Below, piece by piece: positions 43,982 to 52,621 of a stretch of DNA of 64,000 bases. The translations under genes were made by a program, and so were the position numbers. Every line of letters starts with the position of its first letter. Positions within the stretch are counted from its first letter, which is position 1. Location of the stretch: assembly GCF_018135625.1 (NCBI RefSeq), contig NZ_CP073078.1, forward strand, positions 1,662,001 to 1,726,000, given 5' to 3'. The notes below the pieces were generated by a model, which saw only the letters and a list, made by a program, of their open reading frames with translations, did no database searches and had not been told where the DNA came from. Source of the stretch: Phenylobacterium montanum (lineage in GTDB: Bacteria > Pseudomonadota > Alphaproteobacteria > Caulobacterales > Caulobacteraceae).

Positions 43982-43995
43982 TTGATCCAGGTCAA
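43982..43995. promoter_or_regulatory. Fnr/FixK-type box upstream of the hemerythrin-MCO operon
   Basis: TTGATCCAGGTCAA matches the TTGA-N6-TCAA palindrome bound by FixK/Fnr regulators in alphaproteobacteria, close to the consensus TTGAT-N4-ATCAA. It lies 85 bases before the start of the hemerythrin-like gene, after arsC. A second such box lies before the convergent cytochrome-porin operon. Confidence 0.7.
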
Positions 43996-44080
43996 CCTCG
44001 CGGCGGCGATTCTGGGGCATGGTTCCTTGACCGAGGCGCCGTGCGATGGCCGCACCGCCGCGTCCGGCGGAGAGGCGTCG

Positions 44081-44614
44081 ATGTTCACAGCAAAGAAGGT
44101 TTGCCTTGCTCTGGCGGCGGTCGTTGCGACAGCCGCCGGCGGCATGGCGCGCGCCGAGGCGGGACCCCACGAAATACCGCAATCGATCGCGGTCGAGCAC
44201 GCCGAGACCCTCGAGCGGCTGAGCGCCCTGGCGAAGCACAAGGGGCCGGTGGGGATCGAGGCGCGCAAGGCGGTCGACCTCTTTCGGCGGCACATCGCGC
44301 GCGAGGAAGAATACATCCTGCCGCCGTTGACGCTGCTGCCCGTGCTCGCAGACGGCAAGGTGACGCCCGACATGGCCTGGGCGGTGAAGATGACCGACCG
44401 GGTCAAGGCGGACCGCGAATTGATCTTCGAGGAGCACACCCGGGTCACCGACGCCATGAACGCCCTGCGAGTGGCCGGCCTGAAAGCCCACGACAAGCAG
44501 GCCGTCGAATTCGCCGAGGCTGCAGCCACCGACTCGCTGAACGACATCGAACTGATGGAGCCGACCGTGGTGATGATCGGCGACTACCTGCACGCCAAGC
44601 TGCCGGCGCAATAG
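44081..44614 (+). CDS. Periplasmic hemerythrin-like (HHE) protein
   Basis: A 177-residue exported protein. The ATG at 44081 follows GGAGAGG and starts a signal peptide (cleavage near residue 25, ARAEA). The mature part is helical with a hemerythrin-like set of ligands: H40 in VEHAETLERL, H71 and E75 in RRHIAREEEYILPPL (the classic HxxxE...P of HHE domains) and H119 in EEHTRV. Such proteins bind O2 or NO at a diiron site, or store iron. A periplasmic location in front of a copper oxidase operon is unusual. It heads the operon behind the Fnr-type box. Confidence 0.75.
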   Translation: MFTAKKVCLALAAVVATAAGGMARAEAGPHEIPQSIAVEHAETLERLSALAKHKGPVGIEARKAVDLFRRHIAREEEYILPPLTLLPVLADGKVTPDMAWAVKMTDRVKADRELIFEEHTRVTDAMNALRVAGLKAHDKQAVEFAEAAATDSLNDIELMEPTVVMIGDYLHAKLPAQ

Positions 44615-44647
44615 GCTCCGCCTGACTGCGGCAGAGAGGCGTAGCGG

Positions 44648-45211
44648 ATGGAGATCAGTTTCCGCGACTTCATCACCGTGCTGCATGGCATGGGTTTCGG
44701 CGCGCTGTTCATGCTCGCCTTCTCCGGGGCCATCGGCGTGGTCTATGCCGCCGCGGTGATGGGCGAGGGCTGGCCCGCCGAAGCCGAGCGCATGCGCCTG
44801 TTCCGCGCCTACCTGGTCAGCATGGCGGTGTTGGCCTGGCTGACCGTGCTTTCGGGGGCGTTCATCGTCTATCCCTGGTACAGGGCGCATCCGCCCGTCG
44901 GGGCGAACCTCGCCGACTATCCCCGCGCCCTGCTGCTCTCCAGCCCGCACACCGCCGGCTGGCACGAGATCGGCATGGAGTGGAAGGAGCACGTGGCGTG
45001 GCTGGCGCCGATCGCCACGACCATGGCGGCCTATCTGTTCCATCGCTACGGCCCCCAGCTCGGCCGCCAGCGCGCCCTGCGCAACGCCGTGCTGGGCTTC
45101 GTCGCCGTAGCGTTCGTGGCGACCGGCGTGGCCGGGCTGTTCGGCGCCATGCTCAACAAGTTCGCGCCGATCCGGGGCGGGCCGGCGATCGTGCTGCTGC
45201 AGGAGAAATAG
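44648..45211 (+). CDS. His-rich four- to five-helix membrane protein, unknown
   Basis: A 187-residue membrane protein. H13 lies in the first helix (VLHGMGFGALF), H101, H106 and H115 cluster before and at the third helix (SSPHTAGWHEIG; EWKEHVAWL), and H132 lies near its end (YLFHRYG). Other helices lie near residues 55-75, 118-132 and 147-167. The histidines could bind heme b, which would make it a quinone-linked subunit, but I do not recognise a family. It is placed between the hemerythrin and multicopper oxidase genes in a tight operon. Confidence 0.7.
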   Translation: MEISFRDFITVLHGMGFGALFMLAFSGAIGVVYAAAVMGEGWPAEAERMRLFRAYLVSMAVLAWLTVLSGAFIVYPWYRAHPPVGANLADYPRALLLSSPHTAGWHEIGMEWKEHVAWLAPIATTMAAYLFHRYGPQLGRQRALRNAVLGFVAVAFVATGVAGLFGAMLNKFAPIRGGPAIVLLQEK

Positions 45212-45544
45212 GTGGCCGAACCTGAGTCGACGCCGACAGGCCCCGCCGCCGCAGCCCTGCTTTCGGCCGGCGCGGGCGCGCTGTTGCTCGCTCTCCTCGG
45301 CATGTTGGGCGACGCGTGGCCCGCGGCGGCGAAGGCGCTCGACATCTGGCCGCCCAGCGGCCCCCTCTCCGGCGTCAGCCTCGCGGCGGTCGCCGGCTGG
45401 CTGGCGCTCTGGGCGGGCCTGGACAGGGCCTGGCGCCGACGGGACATTGCGCTAGGCCCGGCTGGCCGCATAGCGCTCGCCATGCTGGTGGCGGCCGGGC
45501 TGTTGACCTTTCCGCCGCTATCGGACCTGCTGATCGGAAAATAA
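45212..45544 (+). CDS. Small membrane protein of 110 residues, unknown
   Basis: A 110-residue protein with three hydrophobic helices (about residues 12-34, 53-67 and 85-105). The start is a GTG at 45212 immediately after the stop of the previous gene, with AGGAGA just upstream. I do not recognise a family. The tight placement suggests a partner of the His-rich membrane protein. It contains no Cys or obvious heme ligands. Confidence 0.65.
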   Translation: MAEPESTPTGPAAAALLSAGAGALLLALLGMLGDAWPAAAKALDIWPPSGPLSGVSLAAVAGWLALWAGLDRAWRRRDIALGPAGRIALAMLVAAGLLTFPPLSDLLIGK

Positions 45545-45560
45545 CCGCCGGGGCCGCGCC

Positions 45561-47009
45561 ATGCGCCGTCGAGACCTGCTCGCCATGACCGGAGCCGCCG
45601 CCGCGACGGCGGGCCTGGCCAGTTGCAAGGCGCGTCAGGGACCGGCCGGCCCAGCCGATCACACCATCCACATCGCATCCGGTCTGGTGGAGCTAGCGCC
45701 CGACAAGATCGTCTCGACCACCCTCTACAACGGACAGTTCCCGGGGCCGCTGCTGCGCCTGCAGCAAGGCCGCCCGGTGACGGTCGACATCGTCAACGAC
45801 ACCGACACGCCCGAACAATTGCACTGGCACGGCCAGTTCCTGCCGGTCGACGTGGACGGCTCGGCCGAGGAAGGCACGCCCTTCATCCCCGCGCATGGGT
45901 CCCGGCGCATCCGCTTCACCCCCGGCCCATCCGGCCTGCGCTTCTATCACAGCCATCTGCAGGCCCATGGCGACCTGGCAGCCGGCCAATATTCGGGCCA
46001 GGTCGGTCCGGTCTATGTCGAGCCGAACCGCGAGCCGGGACACTACGACCGCGAAGTGTTCCTGACGCTGAAGGAGTTTCAGCCGACCCTAAGCCGCGGC
46101 GGCGACATGGCCATGGACTTCCTGGCCGGGTCCGTCGATGCGGACCTGAAGGCGCGGGGCGAGGCGTCGATGAACGCGTCCCTGGCGCGGGGAACGCCCC
46201 ATGGATTCGAGGTGGGCTACGGCCTGTTTTCGATCAACGGACGCAAGCTGGGCCATGGCGATCCGATCCGTGTCCGCCAGGGCGAGCGGGTCCTGCTGCA
46301 TGTCGTCAACGGCAGCGCCACCGAGATCCGCAGCCTCGCCCTGCCCGGCCACAGCTTCCAGGTGGTGGCTCTGGACGGCAATCCGGTTCCGCACCCCGCA
46401 GAGGTCCCGGTCCTCTGGCTGGGAACGGCGGAACGGGTCTCGGCGATCGTAGAGATGAACCACCCCGGCGTCTGGATTCTGGGCGACACCGCCGACGACG
46501 ATCGCAAGAATGGCATGGGTATCGTGGTCGAGTACGCGGGCTTCGGCGGCGATCCGGTCTGGACGCCGCCGCCCAAGGCGCCCTGGGACTATGTCCTGTT
46601 CGGCGAGGCGAAGGCGACGGCTGCGCCCGACCAGGTCCTGGACATGGTCATCGCCAAGGACAACGCCGCGCTGGCGGGCTTCAACCGCTGGACCATCAAC
46701 GGGACGGCCTTCGACGACCAGGCGATGGCGGCGATATTCAAACTGAAGCGCGGCGCGCGCTACCGCCTGCGGCTACGCAACGCCAGCGACGACATCCACC
46801 CCGTTCACCTGCACCGGCACAGCTTCGAGCTGGCCCGCATCGGCGGCAAGGCCGGCGGCGGGGTCATGAAGGACGTGGTCATGCTGGGCGGCTACCAGAC
46901 GGCCGAGATCGACTTCGTCGCCGACAATCCCGGGCGCACGCTGTTCCACTGCCACCAGCAGCTGCACATGGACTTCGGCTTCATGGCCCTGTTCGACTAC
47001 GAGGCCTAG
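45561..47009 (+). CDS. Multicopper oxidase, Tat-exported lipoprotein
   Basis: A 482-residue three-domain multicopper oxidase. The N-terminus MRRRDLLAMTG is Tat-like and ends in a lipobox (LASC, C22). All copper-site motifs are present: HWHG (H88, H90), FYHSH (H130, H132), HPVHLHRHSFEL near residue 411 and HCHQQLHMDFGFM near residue 462, giving type 1, 2 and 3 sites with an axial Met. It resembles CueO/McoA-type oxidases that oxidise Cu(I), Fe(II) or phenols. It is the last gene of the hemerythrin operon, which suggests a link to the Cyc2-like cytochrome next door. Confidence 0.9.
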   Translation: MRRRDLLAMTGAAAATAGLASCKARQGPAGPADHTIHIASGLVELAPDKIVSTTLYNGQFPGPLLRLQQGRPVTVDIVNDTDTPEQLHWHGQFLPVDVDGSAEEGTPFIPAHGSRRIRFTPGPSGLRFYHSHLQAHGDLAAGQYSGQVGPVYVEPNREPGHYDREVFLTLKEFQPTLSRGGDMAMDFLAGSVDADLKARGEASMNASLARGTPHGFEVGYGLFSINGRKLGHGDPIRVRQGERVLLHVVNGSATEIRSLALPGHSFQVVALDGNPVPHPAEVPVLWLGTAERVSAIVEMNHPGVWILGDTADDDRKNGMGIVVEYAGFGGDPVWTPPPKAPWDYVLFGEAKATAAPDQVLDMVIAKDNAALAGFNRWTINGTAFDDQAMAAIFKLKRGARYRLRLRNASDDIHPVHLHRHSFELARIGGKAGGGVMKDVVMLGGYQTAEIDFVADNPGRTLFHCHQQLHMDFGFMALFDYEA

Positions 47010-47016
47010 CCTAAGG

Positions 47017-47412
47017 TCACTTCAGGGAGTCCAGATAGGCCACCAGGTCGTCCAGCTGGGCGGGATTCTTGACCCCGCCATAGGTCATCTTGATCCCGGG
47101 CAGCATCTTGTTGGGCGCGGCCAGGTAGTCCTTCAGCTTCTCGTCCGACCAGGCGAAGCCCGCCGCCTTCATCGCCGGAGAGTAGTTGTAGCCGGGGACG
47201 CCGCCGGCGGTGCGGCCCACCACCCCGAACAGGTTCGGGCCCAACAGGACCATGCCGCCGCGCTGGGCCGTGTGGCACATGCTGCATTGCGCCGAGAAGA
47301 CGGTCTTGCCGTGAGAGGCGTCGGCCGCGGCCGCCGGCAGGGCCGCCAGAAGACCAGCCGCCAAGATGAGCGCCGCCTCTCGGCGGCGCCGATGGATCAG
47401 TAGGCGAACCAT
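47017..47412 (-). CDS. Soluble class I cytochrome c
   Basis: A 131-residue exported monoheme cytochrome. After a signal peptide (residues 1-30) come CSMCH (C43, C46, H47) and the axial Met in GIKMTYGG (M109). The GPNLFGVVGR and YSPAMKAAG segments match short mitochondrial-type/cytochrome c2-like proteins. It overlaps the cytochrome-porin gene by 16 bases on the same strand, so they are translationally coupled. It could carry electrons from the outer-membrane cytochrome to the multicopper oxidase or a terminal oxidase. Confidence 0.92.
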   Translation of the reverse strand: MVRLLIHRRRREAALILAAGLLAALPAAAADASHGKTVFSAQCSMCHTAQRGGMVLLGPNLFGVVGRTAGGVPGYNYSPAMKAAGFAWSDEKLKDYLAAPNKMLPGIKMTYGGVKNPAQLDDLVAYLDSLK

Positions 47413-48767
47413 GTGAACACCCTGAAGGTATTGTTGTCGGAGGCGTTGGAGCCGGCGCCGTCCCAGTTCGAGCCGGCCCCGTTGAAGGTGGTGTAGAAGG
47501 TGTATTGCAGGCCCACCCGCATATTGAACCTTTGGCCGAACGGCGAGTGGCCGGCGCCCCAGGGCGTTCCGTCGAGCTGCAGCGTGACACCGGTGCTGTC
47601 CGGCTTGAAGGTGCGGTTGCCGGCGTAGATGAACGGGTTGGACGAGCCGAAGGTGTCGAACACCGAGACGGTGCCGCCGATCTTGTTGCGCCAGTAGTAG
47701 GAGGCGTCGGCGCGGATATCGTTCATCTCGTTGCTGGCGCAGCCGGCCGGCGTGGTCTCGGCGAGGATGCAGCTGGCCTTCAGCGACTGATGCTCGTGCG
47801 TATAGCGGGCGTTGAAGGTGACGACGTCGGTGCTGGCCAGGGTCTTGATGTACGAGGCGTCGACCCCGAGGTCGGTATAGCTATCCGTAGTCCCCGTGGT
47901 CCGGTCCAGGCCCGGGTGGATGTCCGCCTGCATGCCGAAGGCGCCGACCTCGAGCACGCCTTCCTTGACCATCTGCTGGTAGGCGATGCGGCCGTAGGGC
48001 GCGAGCCCCTTGATGTCGCCGGGCGAGGTCGGGTCGGAGCCCAGGCGGAGCAGGGTGGTGGCGCCGGGCGAGCCGTAGGCGCCGCCTTCCACCAGGAACC
48101 TGTCGTCGATCCAGGCATAGGCGGTGGCCCCAAGGCTGGTCTGCGCCAGGGCCCCGTTGATCAGGGGGCTTGCGGCCGGCCCGGGGGCCATGCCTGAGCT
48201 GGTATAGGGATAGCCCCAGGCGGGTGTGGTGTTCCAGGCGTCCTGGACCGTGGGATTGTTGTTCAGGCTCGCGCCCAGGAGCACGTCATGCCCTTTGACT
48301 GAGGTGGTGGTCACCGCCCGGATGTCGAGGTTGTCCCAGGTGAAGGCCCGGCCGATCCCGTCATAGGTGGTTTGGATGAAGGCGCCGAGATGCTGGCCAA
48401 AGCCGCCGGCGAAGAACAGGCTGAACTGATCCAGGCTGGCGTTGTCGTTGGGTCCGTAGTGCGGCGCCGGCGGCGGCTGGTCCTTCTGCGTGCGCACATA
48501 AGAGGCGACGGCCATGGCCGACAGAGGCACATTGAAGTCGCCATTGCGCTGGGTATAGCCGTGCAGCTTGAACTCGCGCCCAAACGGCGTCAGCTGCGGG
48601 CCGAACCCGCCGACGTGGCAGGCCTGGCAAGGCTGGCCGATCTGCGCCGCGAATGCGGGCACGGCCCCGGCCGGGCGGGCCCCGAAGGCGAGCGCGGCGA
48701 GAATTGCGGCCGGCGCCACAAAGAGTTTTAGGCTCGCTCGAAGCGAGGCATGCCGTTCGATACGCAT
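47397..48767 (-). CDS. Cyc2-like fused cytochrome c-outer-membrane porin
   Basis: A 456-residue exported protein. After the signal peptide (cleavage near residue 35) it reads VPAFAAQIGQPCQACH (C47, C50, H51), then QLTPFGREFKLHGYTQRNGD. Cyc2-type fused cytochrome-porins share this ACxxCH...LTPxGRxFKxxGYT layout. The remaining 380 residues look like an outer-membrane beta-barrel: alternating polar/hydrophobic strands, aromatic girdles and an aromatic-ending C-terminus (VFTWFAY). Cyc2 accepts electrons from Fe(II) outside the cell in iron oxidisers. This assignment is by pattern and needs a structure model. A Fnr-type box lies about 64 bases upstream. Confidence 0.8.
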   Translation of the reverse strand: MRIERHASLRASLKLFVAPAAILAALAFGARPAGAVPAFAAQIGQPCQACHVGGFGPQLTPFGREFKLHGYTQRNGDFNVPLSAMAVASYVRTQKDQPPPAPHYGPNDNASLDQFSLFFAGGFGQHLGAFIQTTYDGIGRAFTWDNLDIRAVTTTSVKGHDVLLGASLNNNPTVQDAWNTTPAWGYPYTSSGMAPGPAASPLINGALAQTSLGATAYAWIDDRFLVEGGAYGSPGATTLLRLGSDPTSPGDIKGLAPYGRIAYQQMVKEGVLEVGAFGMQADIHPGLDRTTGTTDSYTDLGVDASYIKTLASTDVVTFNARYTHEHQSLKASCILAETTPAGCASNEMNDIRADASYYWRNKIGGTVSVFDTFGSSNPFIYAGNRTFKPDSTGVTLQLDGTPWGAGHSPFGQRFNMRVGLQYTFYTTFNGAGSNWDGAGSNASDNNTFRVFTWFAY

Positions 48768-48830
48768 GTCTTTTCCCCTACGCTGTATCAGCGTCGAGTC
48801 GGACCATGCGCCGCCGCGGCCGGGTCAACC

Positions 48831-48844
48831 TTGACCTGCGTCAA
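48831..48844. promoter_or_regulatory. Fnr/FixK-type box upstream of the cytochrome-porin operon
   Basis: TTGACCTGCGTCAA is a perfect TTGAC-N4-GTCAA palindrome of the FixK/Fnr type. Its centre lies about 70 bases before the start codon (48767, minus strand). Just beside it the sequence GTCAACCTTGAC adds an overlapping half-site pair. It mirrors the box at 43982. Confidence 0.7.
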
Positions 48845-48972: not shown

Positions 48973-50469
48973 TCAGGACTCCTGCCAGTCCCCGTTCGAG
49001 GCGCCGCGAACCGAGGCGGCGATGCGCGCCTGCGCCTGGGCCACGGGGCTGCGGACCGGGGCATGGCGGCCCGCCCGCGCCAGTTCCATTCGGCCTGCGC
49101 CGGGGCTCTGCCCGGCCTTGAACCGGCCGACCAGTTCAGCCAGGGCCGCAGCCTCGCCCTTGAGGCTGGCGGCCGCGGCGGTGGCTTCCTCGACCATGGC
49201 GGCGTTCTGCTGGGTCACCTGGTCCATCTGGTTGATGGCGGTGTTGACCTGACTGAGGCCCACAGCCTGCTCCTGGCTCGACTGGGCGATCTCGGCGATC
49301 AGGGTGTCGATCCGGCTGACCTTGACCGCGATGCCGCCGAGCGCCTCGCCGGTGTCGCCGACCAGCTTCACTCCGCGCTGCACCTGGTCCGAGCTGGAGG
49401 CGATCAGGGCCTTGATCTCCTTGGCGGCCTCGGCCGAGCGCTGGGCCAGGGCCCGCACCTCCTGGGCCACGACGGCGAAGCCGCGGCCGGCGTCGCCCGC
49501 CCGCGCCGCTTCGACGCCGGCGTTCAGGGCCAAAAGGTTGGTCTGGAAGGCGATCTCGTCGATCACGCCGATGATCTGGGTGACCTTACCCGAACTTTCC
49601 TCGATCTCGCTCATGGCGGCGATGGCGTCGCCCATCACCTGGCCCGAGCGGGTGGCGTCGGCCTTGGCCTCGGAGGCGGCGGCGGTGGCGGCCTTGGCGC
49701 CGTCGGCGCTGCGCTTGACCGTGGCGGTGATCTCATCGAGGGCCGCGGCGGTCTCCTCCAGGCTGGCGGCCTGCTGCTCGGTGCGGCGCGACAGGTCGTC
49801 CGAGGCCCCCGCGATCTCGTCGGCGCCGGTGCGCAGTCCGTCCGACGCCTGGGATATGCCGATCACCGCCTCGCGCAGGCTTTCGGTGGCGCGGTTGAAG
49901 TCCTCCCGCATCCGCCGGTAGCGCCCGGCGAAATCGGCGTCGATGCGCGCGGTCAGGTCCCCGTCCGCCAGACGCTGGAGCCCCTCGGCCATGGCCGTGA
50001 CCACGGTGTTCATCTGCTCTTCGCTCTCGCGGCCCGCCTCGCGGGCGGCGCGCTCCAGCTCGGCCTGGGTGATGTCGGTGGCGAACTTGACCACCTTGTA
50101 GGGCCGCCCGGCCTTGTCCAGCACGGGGTTGTAGGCGCCCTGGATCCAGACCTCGCGGCCGCCCTTGCCGACCCGCTGGAACTTGTCGACGAAGAACCGG
50201 CCTTCGCCCAGCTGGCGCCAGAAGGCGCGATACTCGGCGCTATCGGCGTATTCCGGACTGACGAACATGCTGTGGCGCCGGCCCTTCACCTCGGACAGGG
50301 CGTAGCCCATGGTCTTCAGGAAGTTCTCGTTGGCGTCGACGATGGTGCCGTCGAGCTCGAACTCGATCACCGCCTGCGAGCGGTTGATCGCCGCGACCAT
50401 GGCTTCGAGTTCGGAGATGCGTTCCACCGAGCGGGCGTCGGGCGCGCGGGCGCCGCCGAAGAGAGACAT
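48973..50469 (-). CDS. Soluble PAS-containing methyl-accepting chemotaxis protein
   Basis: A 498-residue chemoreceptor with no transmembrane segment. A PAS domain (about residues 20-135: FELDGTIVDANENFLKTMGY) is followed by a HAMP-like linker and the signalling domain, with the hairpin tip [21 protein letters not shown] near 305-325. The C-terminus is DWQES, an altered form of the CheR-binding pentapeptide (xWxxF). The PAS domain may bind heme or FAD, as in aerotaxis sensors. It is the third gene of a chemotaxis operon with CheW and a near-paralogue. Its C-terminal half is almost identical to that of the paralogue. Confidence 0.92.
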   Translation of the reverse strand: MSLFGGARAPDARSVERISELEAMVAAINRSQAVIEFELDGTIVDANENFLKTMGYALSEVKGRRHSMFVSPEYADSAEYRAFWRQLGEGRFFVDKFQRVGKGGREVWIQGAYNPVLDKAGRPYKVVKFATDITQAELERAAREAGRESEEQMNTVVTAMAEGLQRLADGDLTARIDADFAGRYRRMREDFNRATESLREAVIGISQASDGLRTGADEIAGASDDLSRRTEQQAASLEETAAALDEITATVKRSADGAKAATAAASEAKADATRSGQVMGDAIAAMSEIEESSGKVTQIIGVIDEIAFQTNLLALNAGVEAARAGDAGRGFAVVAQEVRALAQRSAEAAKEIKALIASSSDQVQRGVKLVGDTGEALGGIAVKVSRIDTLIAEIAQSSQEQAVGLSQVNTAINQMDQVTQQNAAMVEEATAAAASLKGEAAALAELVGRFKAGQSPGAGRMELARAGRHAPVRSPVAQAQARIAASVRGASNGDWQES

Positions 50470-50612
50470 GACGAACTCCCCTGGTTATGGCCTCGGCGAG
50501 ATGTTCGTCGCCGCTGACCCTATGTGCGCGACAAGCTAGACATTTATACCTTAAGAAGTAATGTGGTGACTTGCCACATCAGGTAGTTCTCAGGTCGATG
50601 GGTCCGGTCGCA

Positions 50613-51077
50613 TCAGGCGGCGTGCCGTTGCTCCGCCGGCAGCAGGGCGCCGACCACCAAGCGGCTCAGCATCCGCCCTTCCATCGGCAGGATGGCGTCG
50701 ACGAAGCGATCCGTGGCGGTCGAACCCATGGCCGGCGGCGGCTTGAACAGGCTGGCCTCGACCTGGAAGGTCTCCTGCACCCCGTCGACCAGCAGGCCGA
50801 CGATGCGATCCTCGTGCTGCACCACCACGGTGACATGCCGCGAGGAGGGATCGGTGCGGCCCAGGCCCAGGCGGTTTCTGAGGTCCAGCACCGGGATCAC
50901 CGCGCCGCGCAGGTTGATCACGCCGCTGACATAGTCCGGCGTCTGCGGCATGGGCGTGGCCGGGGTCCAGCCACGAATCTCGCGCACCGTGCGGATGTCG
51001 ATGCAGAATTCCTGCTCGGCGATCTCGAAGGAGATCAATTCGAGGACGGCGTCGGAGGAGGCGGCGGTGTCGTTCAT
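50613..51077 (-). CDS. cheW: Chemotaxis adaptor protein CheW
   Basis: A 154-residue CheW coupling protein. It has VLELISFEIAEQEFCIDIRT, IRGWTPATPMPQTPDYVSGV and INLRGAVIPVLDLRNRLG, then VVQHEDRIVGLLVDGVQETF, the standard SH3-like CheW fold. I start at the ATG at 51077; a longer frame would add 20 residues with little support. It sits between two chemoreceptor genes on the same strand and so couples them to a CheA encoded elsewhere, since no cheA lies in the window. Confidence 0.93.
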   Translation of the reverse strand: MNDTAASSDAVLELISFEIAEQEFCIDIRTVREIRGWTPATPMPQTPDYVSGVINLRGAVIPVLDLRNRLGLGRTDPSSRHVTVVVQHEDRIVGLLVDGVQETFQVEASLFKPPPAMGSTATDRFVDAILPMEGRMLSRLVVGALLPAEQRHAA

Positions 51078-51121
51078 GGGCGCATGTCCAATGGATCTGG
51101 GGCCTGGCTTGCGGACGGGAA

Positions 51122-52621
51122 CTAGAATTCCTGCCAATCGCCGCCGGAGGCGGCGGGCTTGTTACGTATCGAGGCGGCCAGCCTGGCCTGGGCCTGGCCG
51201 ACCGGGTTACGGGCGGGAGCGTGGCGGCCGGCCTGAGCCAGCTCGATGCGCGAGCCGCCGCGGCCGCTGTCGAAGCGGCTGACCAGAGAGGCCAGTTCCA
51301 TGGCCTCCGCCTTCAGACTGGCGGCGGCGGCGGTGGCCTCCTCGACCATGGCGGCGTTCTGCTGGGTCACCTGGTCCATCTGGTTGACCGCGGTGTTGAC
51401 CTGGGAGAGGCCCTGGGCCTGCTCTTGGCTGGACTTGGCGATCTCGGCGATCAGGCTGTCGATCTCGCTGACCTTGGCGACGATGCCGCCCAGCGCCTGG
51501 CCGGTGTCGCCCACCAGCTTCACCCCGCGCTGCACCTGTTCGGAGCTGGAGGCGATCAGGGCCTTGATCTCCTTGGCCGCCTCGGCCGAGCGTTGGGCCA
51601 GGGCCCGCACCTCCTGGGCGACCACCGCGAAGCCGCGGCCGGCGTCGCCCGCCCGCGCTGCTTCGACGCCCGCGTTCAGGGCCAGGAGATTGGTCTGGAA
51701 GGCGATCTCGTCGATCACCCCGATGATCTGGCTGATCTGGCCCGAGCTCTGCTCGATCTCGCCCATGGCCGCGACGGCTTCGTCCATCACCTTGCCCGAG
51801 CGCACCGCATCATCCTTCGCGCCCGACGCGGCGGCGTTGGCCTGCTTGGCGCCCTCGGCGCTGCGCTTGACCGTGGCGGTGACCTGATCGAGGGCCGCGG
51901 CGGTCTGCTCCAGGCTCGAGGCCTGCTGCTCGGTGCGGCGCGACAGGTCGTCCGAGGCCCCGGCGATCTCCTCCGAGCCGTTGCGCAGGCCGTTGGCCGC
52001 CTCGGCTATGGAGCGCATAGTCTGGGCGAGGCTGTCGATCGCCTGGTTGAAATCGCTGCGGATGTCCTGGAAGCGGCCCGGCAGGGAGGCGTCGATGCGC
52101 GCGCCGAGGTCGCCGCCGGCGACACGCTGCAGGGCGTCGCCCAGCACCTGCACCACCAGGGCCTCGGCCTCCTCGCTCTGGCGGCGCTCGCTCTCGGCGC
52201 GGCCCTGGTCGCGTTCGGCGCGGGTGATGTCGGTCAGCACGGCCACGATCTTGTCGGTGCGGCCAGCCTTGCCGGAGACCGGGCAGAAGGCGCCGGCGAA
52301 AGCCACCTCCGAGCCGCCGCGGCCCAGGCGCTGGAACTTGCCGCTCTTGGACTGGCCGTCGGCCAGGGCGCGCCAGAAAGCCTTGTAGTCGGCGCCTTGA
52401 GCTTCATCCGGGCGGACGAAGTTGCTGTCGCGGCGGCCCTTTAGGTCAGAAAGGGCATAGCCGGTGGCGCGCAAAAAGGCGTCGTTGGCGTCGAGGATGG
52501 TCCCGTCCAGGTCGAACTCCACCACGGCCTGGGCGCGCTGGATGGCGGCGCTCATCGCCTCCAACTCGGCCATCCTCGTGGCCTGCTGTTCGCTCGCCCG
52601 GTTGCCGCCGAAAAGACCCAT
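51122..52621 (-). CDS. Soluble PAS-containing methyl-accepting chemotaxis protein with CheR pentapeptide
   Basis: A 499-residue chemoreceptor closely related to the protein at 48973: PAS domain (residues about 25-140, [20 protein letters not shown]), HAMP-like linker and signalling domain (tip [21 protein letters not shown]). No transmembrane helix. It ends GGDWQEF, an intact CheR/CheB-tethering pentapeptide (xWxxF). It is the first gene of the chemoreceptor-CheW-chemoreceptor operon. The two receptors diverge in PAS and linker but share long near-identical stretches in the signalling domain. Confidence 0.93.

Follow-up and report, generated by a model that had tools for sequence, protein, structure and literature searches.

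A recurrent gene cluster with Fnr/FixK-type promoter boxes joins a Cyc2-like cytochrome-porin to a cytochrome c, a hemerythrin-like protein and a multicopper oxidase in Phenylobacterium montanum

Do the genes of a heme-bearing outer-membrane barrel resembling Cyc2, a cytochrome c, a hemerythrin-like protein and a multicopper oxidase (MCO), packed into two convergent operons of Phenylobacterium montanum, form a unit, and if so, from which donor and in which direction would electrons run through it? The cluster lies in the 64,000-nt stretch of contig NZ_CP073078.1 analysed here (positions 1,662,001 to 1,726,000, the window) and comprises six genes between 44081 and 48767, four on the plus strand and two convergent with them on the minus strand, as judged from open reading frames (ORFs). 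The five genes named in the first-pass annotation, coding for the hemerythrin-like protein, a membrane protein, the MCO, the cytochrome c and the cytochrome-porin, were all present as ORFs where it had placed them, and a sixth gene, that of a small membrane protein, was absent from its list. Taken together, the results described below indicate that the cluster is real and recurrent and carries conserved promoter boxes, and that it is an unusual new combination of known parts and not a wholly new machine.

Besides the window, the set was found at four other loci in three orders, complete in some and lacking both membrane genes in others, in line with the expected co-occurrence in other genomes. 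L049 holds the full set in the convergent order of the window, and in L051 the barrel, cytochrome, hemerythrin-like, both membrane and MCO genes all point in one direction, as one operon. L062 and L132 present a third order, with the barrel gene divergent from the hemerythrin-MCO genes and the cytochrome c gene beyond; the two membrane genes were not found in these two loci, while the small membrane protein is 50 and 51% identical in L049 and L051, respectively. The barrels of the module fall into two clades divided by a branch with a support of 95, a statement that stands on branch support in a quick tree. The barrels of L056 and L057, two loci with a hemerythrin-like gene and no MCO, lie elsewhere in the same tree with a support under 95. 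Across 90 non-redundant barrel loci outside the window, the sample used for all partner counts, a hemerythrin-like gene was near the barrel in 6 and a close MCO in 4, all four of the latter also having the hemerythrin-like gene, so that neither of the two is the constant part of the module that had been proposed.

The Fnr/FixK consensus is a palindrome of the type TTGAT-N4-ATCAA. Only two sites of the strict form TTGAY-N4-RTCAA occur in the 64-kb window, TTGATCCAGGTCAA on the plus strand (43982–43995), 85 nt before the ATG of the hemerythrin-like gene, and TTGACCTGCGTCAA (48831–48844), which reads TTGACGCAGGTCAA on the minus strand and lies 63 nt before the ATG of the barrel gene; each has one or both half-sites as TTGAC. 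The 5.65-Mb genome contains 24 such sites as compared with 3 for a control pattern, and the probability of two sites in 2 × 150 bp was about 8e-7 (Poisson, calculated post hoc and assuming an even density), indicating that the boxes reported at both promoters are present beyond chance expectation. Strict boxes were found at both module promoters in the window and in L049, L062 and L132, and in these three loci the 14-mer TTGATCCAGGTCAA, read on the gene strand, precedes the hemerythrin-like gene. In the barrel family at large, a first count gave a strict box upstream of 18 of 72 barrel genes, a density of 0.64 per kb versus 0.035 per kb elsewhere in the loci. Upstream of 86 barrels, TTGA-N6-TCAA ranked first of 256 such palindromes (24 loci), followed by that of GCCG (13 loci), and the strict form occurred at 19 of the 86, whereas permuted half-sites gave 0.25 on average, with values of 9 and 6 for two permutations overlapping the true motif. 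A perfect box was also observed 59 nt before one of the three COX1-family genes of the genome, which we read as the cbb3 type. Five HTH_Crp_2 matches in the genome exceed the cut-off. The boxes are thus what supports the oxygen-responsive control proposed earlier, suggesting that the cluster is probably switched on at low oxygen by a presumptive FixK/Fnr-type regulator.

The barrel gene (47397–48767, minus strand) encodes a protein of 456 aa, a Cyc2-like monoheme cytochrome fused to a predicted 16-stranded barrel. It had no match in Pfam or NCBIfam at an E-value of 0.1 and no sequence match in the PDB at an E-value of 1, and searching the PDB with a profile of 40 relatives returned only azurin and scaffoldin at 0.27 or worse, which we took as noise. 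Nevertheless a structural model (AlphaFold2, 40 relatives) gave 16 long strands with a predicted local distance difference test score (pLDDT) of 84.2 and a predicted template modelling score of 0.83, and the nearest solved folds were general porins (Z about 22), in agreement with the proposal that this domain would model as a porin; the heme site is the weak spot of the model, residues 49–57 being under a pLDDT of 50. The single N-terminal heme motif, CQACH at residues 47–51, was likewise conserved as anticipated, its CxxCH showing no exception in alignments of 20 and of 40 relatives, which rules out a barrel without heme. The length is also that of Cyc2, for which the criterion is more than 365 aa.

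In the published Cyc2 signature, AXPXFAR[Q/K][T/Y] lies five residues upstream of the heme motif CXXCH, which PXL follows at a distance of four residues (PMC8406198). The window barrel reads AVPAFAAQI-GQPCQACH, in which the arginine is replaced, and its PQL follows at a distance of five. The strict upstream motif was present in 10 of 91 sequences (the window and 90 relatives), and PxL stood five residues after CXXCH in all 91 and four after in none; among 28 further loci at the level of the phylum, 20 had the strict motif, 2 a variant and 6 no such frame by pattern. A barrel profile nevertheless reached AxPxFARQT cytochromes of a family that we take for Zetaproteobacteria (f39), with E-values as low as 1e-18 in alignments confined to the cytochrome and the first strands, and such a profile had a match in 85 of the 398 phylum genomes, often a distant N-terminal one in that family. 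Thus, of the Cyc2 layout described in the first-pass annotation, the heme motif, length and 16-stranded fold stood, while the strict published signature was absent; because of this we do not claim plain membership and name the protein Cyc2-like, although by sequence and model it would work as Cyc2 does. The published Cyc2 tree excluded sequences without PXFAR[Q/K][T/Y] (PMC8406198) and, as that passage is worded, 81 of the 91 sequences compiled here would have been left out.

The cytochrome c gene (47017–47412, minus strand), whose start overlaps the end of the barrel gene by 16 nt, encodes a class I monoheme protein of 131 aa with a PF00034 match over the Pfam cut-off. The barrel set was made up of loci from 100 relatives and of the 80 best among 568 confirmed stretches; the barrel occurs in 18 of the closest 100 genomes, own genome included, and named records among the best 80 of 568 belong to Caulobacteraceae, Sphingomonadales, Rhizomicrobium and Rhodanobacteraceae, with Novosphingobium, Rhizomicrobium electricum DSM 21034 and Rhodanobacter among the named carriers. 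A homologue of the window's cytochrome c was found by BLAST within 3 kb of the barrel in 46 of the 90 loci, a count that other cytochromes may escape, and an overlap of exactly 16 nt between the two genes was seen in 22 of the 46 non-redundant pairs that share a strand. ORF patterns of HiPIP and cupredoxin type were present in 24 and 4 of the 90 loci, respectively (19 and 6 when clustered by sequence); of three HiPIP examples submitted to Pfam, one was over the cut-off and two just under it, and the single cupredoxin sent was over. Since only 2 loci hold both a cytochrome and a HiPIP, the periplasmic carriers look interchangeable, as though one took the place of another, and the widespread core is a barrel with an exchangeable carrier (cytochrome c or HiPIP), to which the hemerythrin-like gene and the MCO are rare additions. 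HiPIP-type genes lie directly upstream of the barrel in many loci that lack the cytochrome c (L089:9696-9971, L078:7341-7619 and L131:9733-10005, among others).

The MCO (45561–47009, plus strand) ends 7 nt from the convergent cytochrome c gene and matches PF07731, PF07732 and PF00394 over their cut-offs. MCOs bind copper through the motifs HWHG, HSH, HPVHLH and HCHxxxH, and the ligands H88, H90, H130, H132, H413, H416, H418, H463, C464, H465 and H469 were invariant in 10 of 10 aligned sequences. The axial position of the type 1 site, where CueO has Met, is Phe or Leu in this clade and Phe in the window copy. Two arginines are present in the signal region of all 10 aligned MCOs, and the Tat model scored 15.4 bits against a cut-off of 16.7; a lipobox-like cysteine occurs in some, including the window's, which may be a lipoprotein of Tat type (RRRDLL...LASC, by eye). 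Assignment to CopA/PcoA (TIGR01480, 122.6 bits versus a cut-off of 478.95) and to CueO (NF008205, 83.7 versus 525) was rejected. Among the matches listed, the clade (72–77% identity) was found in 5 of the 100 relatives besides own genome, with no further match above 40% identity; of 385 genomes of the class, one besides own has this MCO, at 66% (E-value limit 1e-60). In another genome of the genus, G001, PadR, MCO and chromate transporter genes stand in a row (L069:2393-5451), and the same three families occur together on two Bradyrhizobium plasmids.

What such a combination would do can be proposed with graded confidence. We give a close to even chance to a microoxic Fe(II)-oxidation or tolerance unit, that is, a low-oxygen-induced electron-uptake route at the outer membrane, with Fe(II) as the likeliest donor because of the kinship with Cyc2. 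When oxygen falls, a Crp/Fnr-family regulator of FixK or Fnr type would turn on both operons. At the outer membrane, dissolved Fe(II) or some other reductant would give up electrons one at a time to the barrel heme, with Fe(III) produced outside the cell, and the cytochrome c would carry the electrons over the periplasm to the respiratory chain, to a terminal oxidase whose gene has the same box, and perhaps also to the Tat-exported MCO. With O2, the MCO would oxidise Fe(II) that has leaked into the periplasm or withdraw electrons from the cytochrome, and the hemerythrin-like protein would bind iron or O2 in the same compartment. The genes, their boxes, the heme motif, the predicted fold of the barrel and the recurrence in different orders were observed here. 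Fe(II) as donor, the direction of flow and the oxygen control are what we infer from knowledge of the families. The transfer from cytochrome to MCO is a guess, as are the roles given to the hemerythrin-like protein and to both membrane proteins; draining the cytochrome, oxidising stray Fe(II) and handling another metal would fit the MCO sequence alike. No match to the RuBisCO large chain was found in the genome, so autotrophic growth by that path is an unlikely use, and protection or mixotrophic energy is the more likely one.

Several observations weigh against this proposal. Kinship with Cyc2 is what makes Fe(II) the presumptive substrate of the barrel, and the barrel departs from the Cyc2 signature at the two places described above. 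A close MCO is rare (4 of 90 barrel loci), and MCO kin are found at loci without a barrel nearby, several of them beside arsenic and chromate genes. Within the genus, G004 (80% complete) has the barrel and cytochrome with no close MCO, and in G001 the MCO lies between PadR and ChrA, while of the barrel only a fragment was found, at the end of a contig on which no homologue of the cytochrome was present. No carrier of the three types (cytochrome, HiPIP or cupredoxin) was detected in 21 of the 90 loci, in 8 of which the barrel is less than 500 nt from the end of the stretch. A strict box is missing at 67 of the 86 barrels, so control by this box is not general in the barrel family, and L051 has only TTGA-N6-TCAA with other inner bases, at the barrel. 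Finally, own genome has a second Cyc2-like barrel (G000:C1:1361909-1363231; L048:8838-10232), 68% identical and followed directly by a cytochrome c homologue (55%), and this pair has no hemerythrin-like gene, MCO or box nearby.

The strongest competing explanation concerns the MCO. Together with the two membrane proteins, it could have been recruited from a pool of mobile resistance genes and serve to oxidise or detoxify species of Cu, As, Cr or Mn, as a metal(loid) tolerance cassette that shares low-oxygen control with a separate electron-uptake pair and has no electron path to it, an arrangement that we consider possible if somewhat unlikely. The settings of MCO clade members that are 64–74% identical speak for it: the MCO of G001 lies between PadR and ChrA, that of B. 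betae beside PadR-ChrA with a heavy-metal RND pump further on, and that of Komagataeibacter beside arsR, arsC, a transporter and arsH, while on the Bradyrhizobium SK17 plasmid an MCO match (in two pieces, with no gene listed) stands between PadR-ChrA and arsH, arsB, arsC and arsR, and in G043 the MCO follows a GDT1-family gene. In addition, the 60% homologue of the larger membrane protein on a Burkholderia plasmid is near PadR-ChrA and mer genes, and an arsC-type gene lies just upstream in the window. Judged by the arsenic and chromate neighbours of the clade, a role of the MCO in metal tolerance is at least as plausible as one in accepting electrons. However, all three arrangements of the module place the MCO tightly among the hemerythrin-like, cytochrome and barrel genes and, L051 excepted, the same strict boxes precede them. 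The MCO also scores under the CopA and CueO cut-offs, and in G772 its relative has no recognised metal gene adjacent (by eye).

Electrons might also flow outward, the barrel pair passing them to extracellular Fe(III) or another acceptor when oxygen is limiting. Rhizomicrobium electricum, a species linked to electrodes, has a barrel relative, Fnr/FixK-type control suits an anaerobic role, and Cyc2B of Acidithiobacillus ferrooxidans is reported to participate when Fe(III) outside the cell is reduced (PMC10715153). This direction nevertheless appears quite improbable to us, as the module includes an enzyme that uses O2, and class I cytochromes c and HiPIPs are usually on the high-potential side of the chain. 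That the genes are chance neighbours or an artefact of reading is scarcely credible: the MCO and the hemerythrin-like gene do rarely accompany the barrel, but the set recurs in L049, L051, L062 and L132, in three orders and with barrels of two clades, and boxes stand at both promoters in the window and in three of these four loci, which led us to reject a chance grouping. A further variant, decidedly doubtful, retains inward flow and confines it to the envelope as a short-circuit, in which electrons of extracellular Fe(II) would pass from the Cyc2-like barrel, of the clade without the signature, through the cytochrome c to a periplasmic, perhaps membrane-anchored MCO and on to O2, and not to a proton-pumping inner-membrane oxidase, the hemerythrin-like protein supplying or buffering iron or O2. 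If this variant is true, a bacterium that does not depend on iron for its living would possess a shield dedicated to iron and induced at low oxygen.

If the proposed Fe(II)-oxidation or tolerance unit is correct, electron uptake of the Cyc2 type would extend to Caulobacteraceae and Sphingomonadales, mostly through a clade without the diagnostic arginine and thus missed by motif-based surveys of iron oxidisers. Such uptake would also be coupled to control by low oxygen and, in a few genomes, to a hemerythrin-like protein and a copper oxidase, which would offer a case, open to testing, in which iron is oxidised for protection and not for a livelihood. Since some barrel carriers are named strains, the core pair is probably testable in culture.

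Compared with known systems, the window barrel resembles Cyc2 of Mariprofundus ferrooxydans PV-1 and others, as far as the source describes it, in having one CxxCH near the N-terminus, a 16-stranded barrel and a similar length (PMC8406198), as well as in a kinship at profile level that spans the cytochrome region and the first strands, and differs from it in the two elements of the signature (PMC8406198). The parts of the sources available describe a Cyc2 cluster of Bradyrhizobium sp. with a HiPIP and three cytochromes c (PMC5566968) and a cytochrome c adjacent to Cyc2 in Acetobacteraceae (PMC10715153), so that in both, as in the window, the barrel gene adjoins carrier genes; the same passages mention no hemerythrin-like gene, MCO or Fnr/FixK box, all of which the window has. 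The PcoAB/CopAB pair, a porin and an MCO, is likewise described there as proposed for Fe(II) oxidation, with 10–12 transmembrane motifs in PcoB (PMC5566968), and resembles the window in placing an MCO beside an outer-membrane barrel gene with a proposed role in metal oxidation. Unlike in that pair, the window MCO is far under the CopA cut-off and its barrel is a predicted 16-stranded cytochrome-porin. PcoB is not known to carry a heme. The Pio and Mto systems are porin-decaheme conduits for the entry of electrons from Fe(II) at the outer membrane, an entry that the window would share with them; unlike their multiheme cytochrome and separate porin, it has one heme fused to the barrel. In the literature searched, which leaves most subscription journals outside, we found no report joining Cyc2, hemerythrin and multicopper oxidase and none joining Cyc2 and Caulobacteraceae.

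The hemerythrin-like gene (44081–44614, plus strand) encodes a helical protein of 177 aa that would be secreted, judging its N-terminus by eye. Its match to PF01814 is weak (19.8 bits, under the cut-off of 25.3), and H40, H71, E75, H119 and E157 were invariant in 9 of 9 sequences. A model built from 3 sequences was helical (pLDDT 83); Foldseek returned nothing for it at an E-value below 0.001, the best being 0.38, mostly ferritin-like folds with YtfE among the weak matches. Searches with the frame at 44081 covered the retrieved loci and plasmids, and several relatives on Sinorhizobium plasmids are annotated as hemerythrin domain-containing. A second frame (44083–44613, plus strand) is also open over 177 codons, probably just because of high G+C, since three relatives have one or two stops there.

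The integral membrane protein of 187 aa encoded next (44648–45211, plus strand) matched no known family, its PF22285 score reaching only 14.7 of 27 bits, and showed no kinship by sequence to a solved structure. Its description as His-rich was overstated, as it has 6 histidines in 187 residues, although all 4 homologues compared retain H13, H106 and H115. It was present in 3 of the 100 relatives, own genome included, and in none of the other 384 genomes of the class. A 60% homologue adjoins a Tn3 transposase on plasmid pB1701 of Burkholderia contaminans, near metal resistance genes (L190:7001-7997), and this adjacency suggests that the protein has moved across classes. The small membrane protein of 110 aa (45212–45544, plus strand, an ORF) starts with GTG right after the preceding stop.

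On the flank of the first box, an arsC-type gene ends 20 nt upstream, with a GDT1-family gene further upstream. On the other flank (48973–52621, minus strand), two PAS-type chemoreceptor genes enclose a CheW gene, the second receptor being assigned by sequence and not by Pfam. Genes for methyl-accepting chemotaxis proteins are also found near some distant barrels (L066, L067 and L074), where they possibly serve aerotaxis or redox taxis. In G003, an OmpW-family gene (L049:7775-8548) lies just upstream of the module barrel, on the opposite strand.

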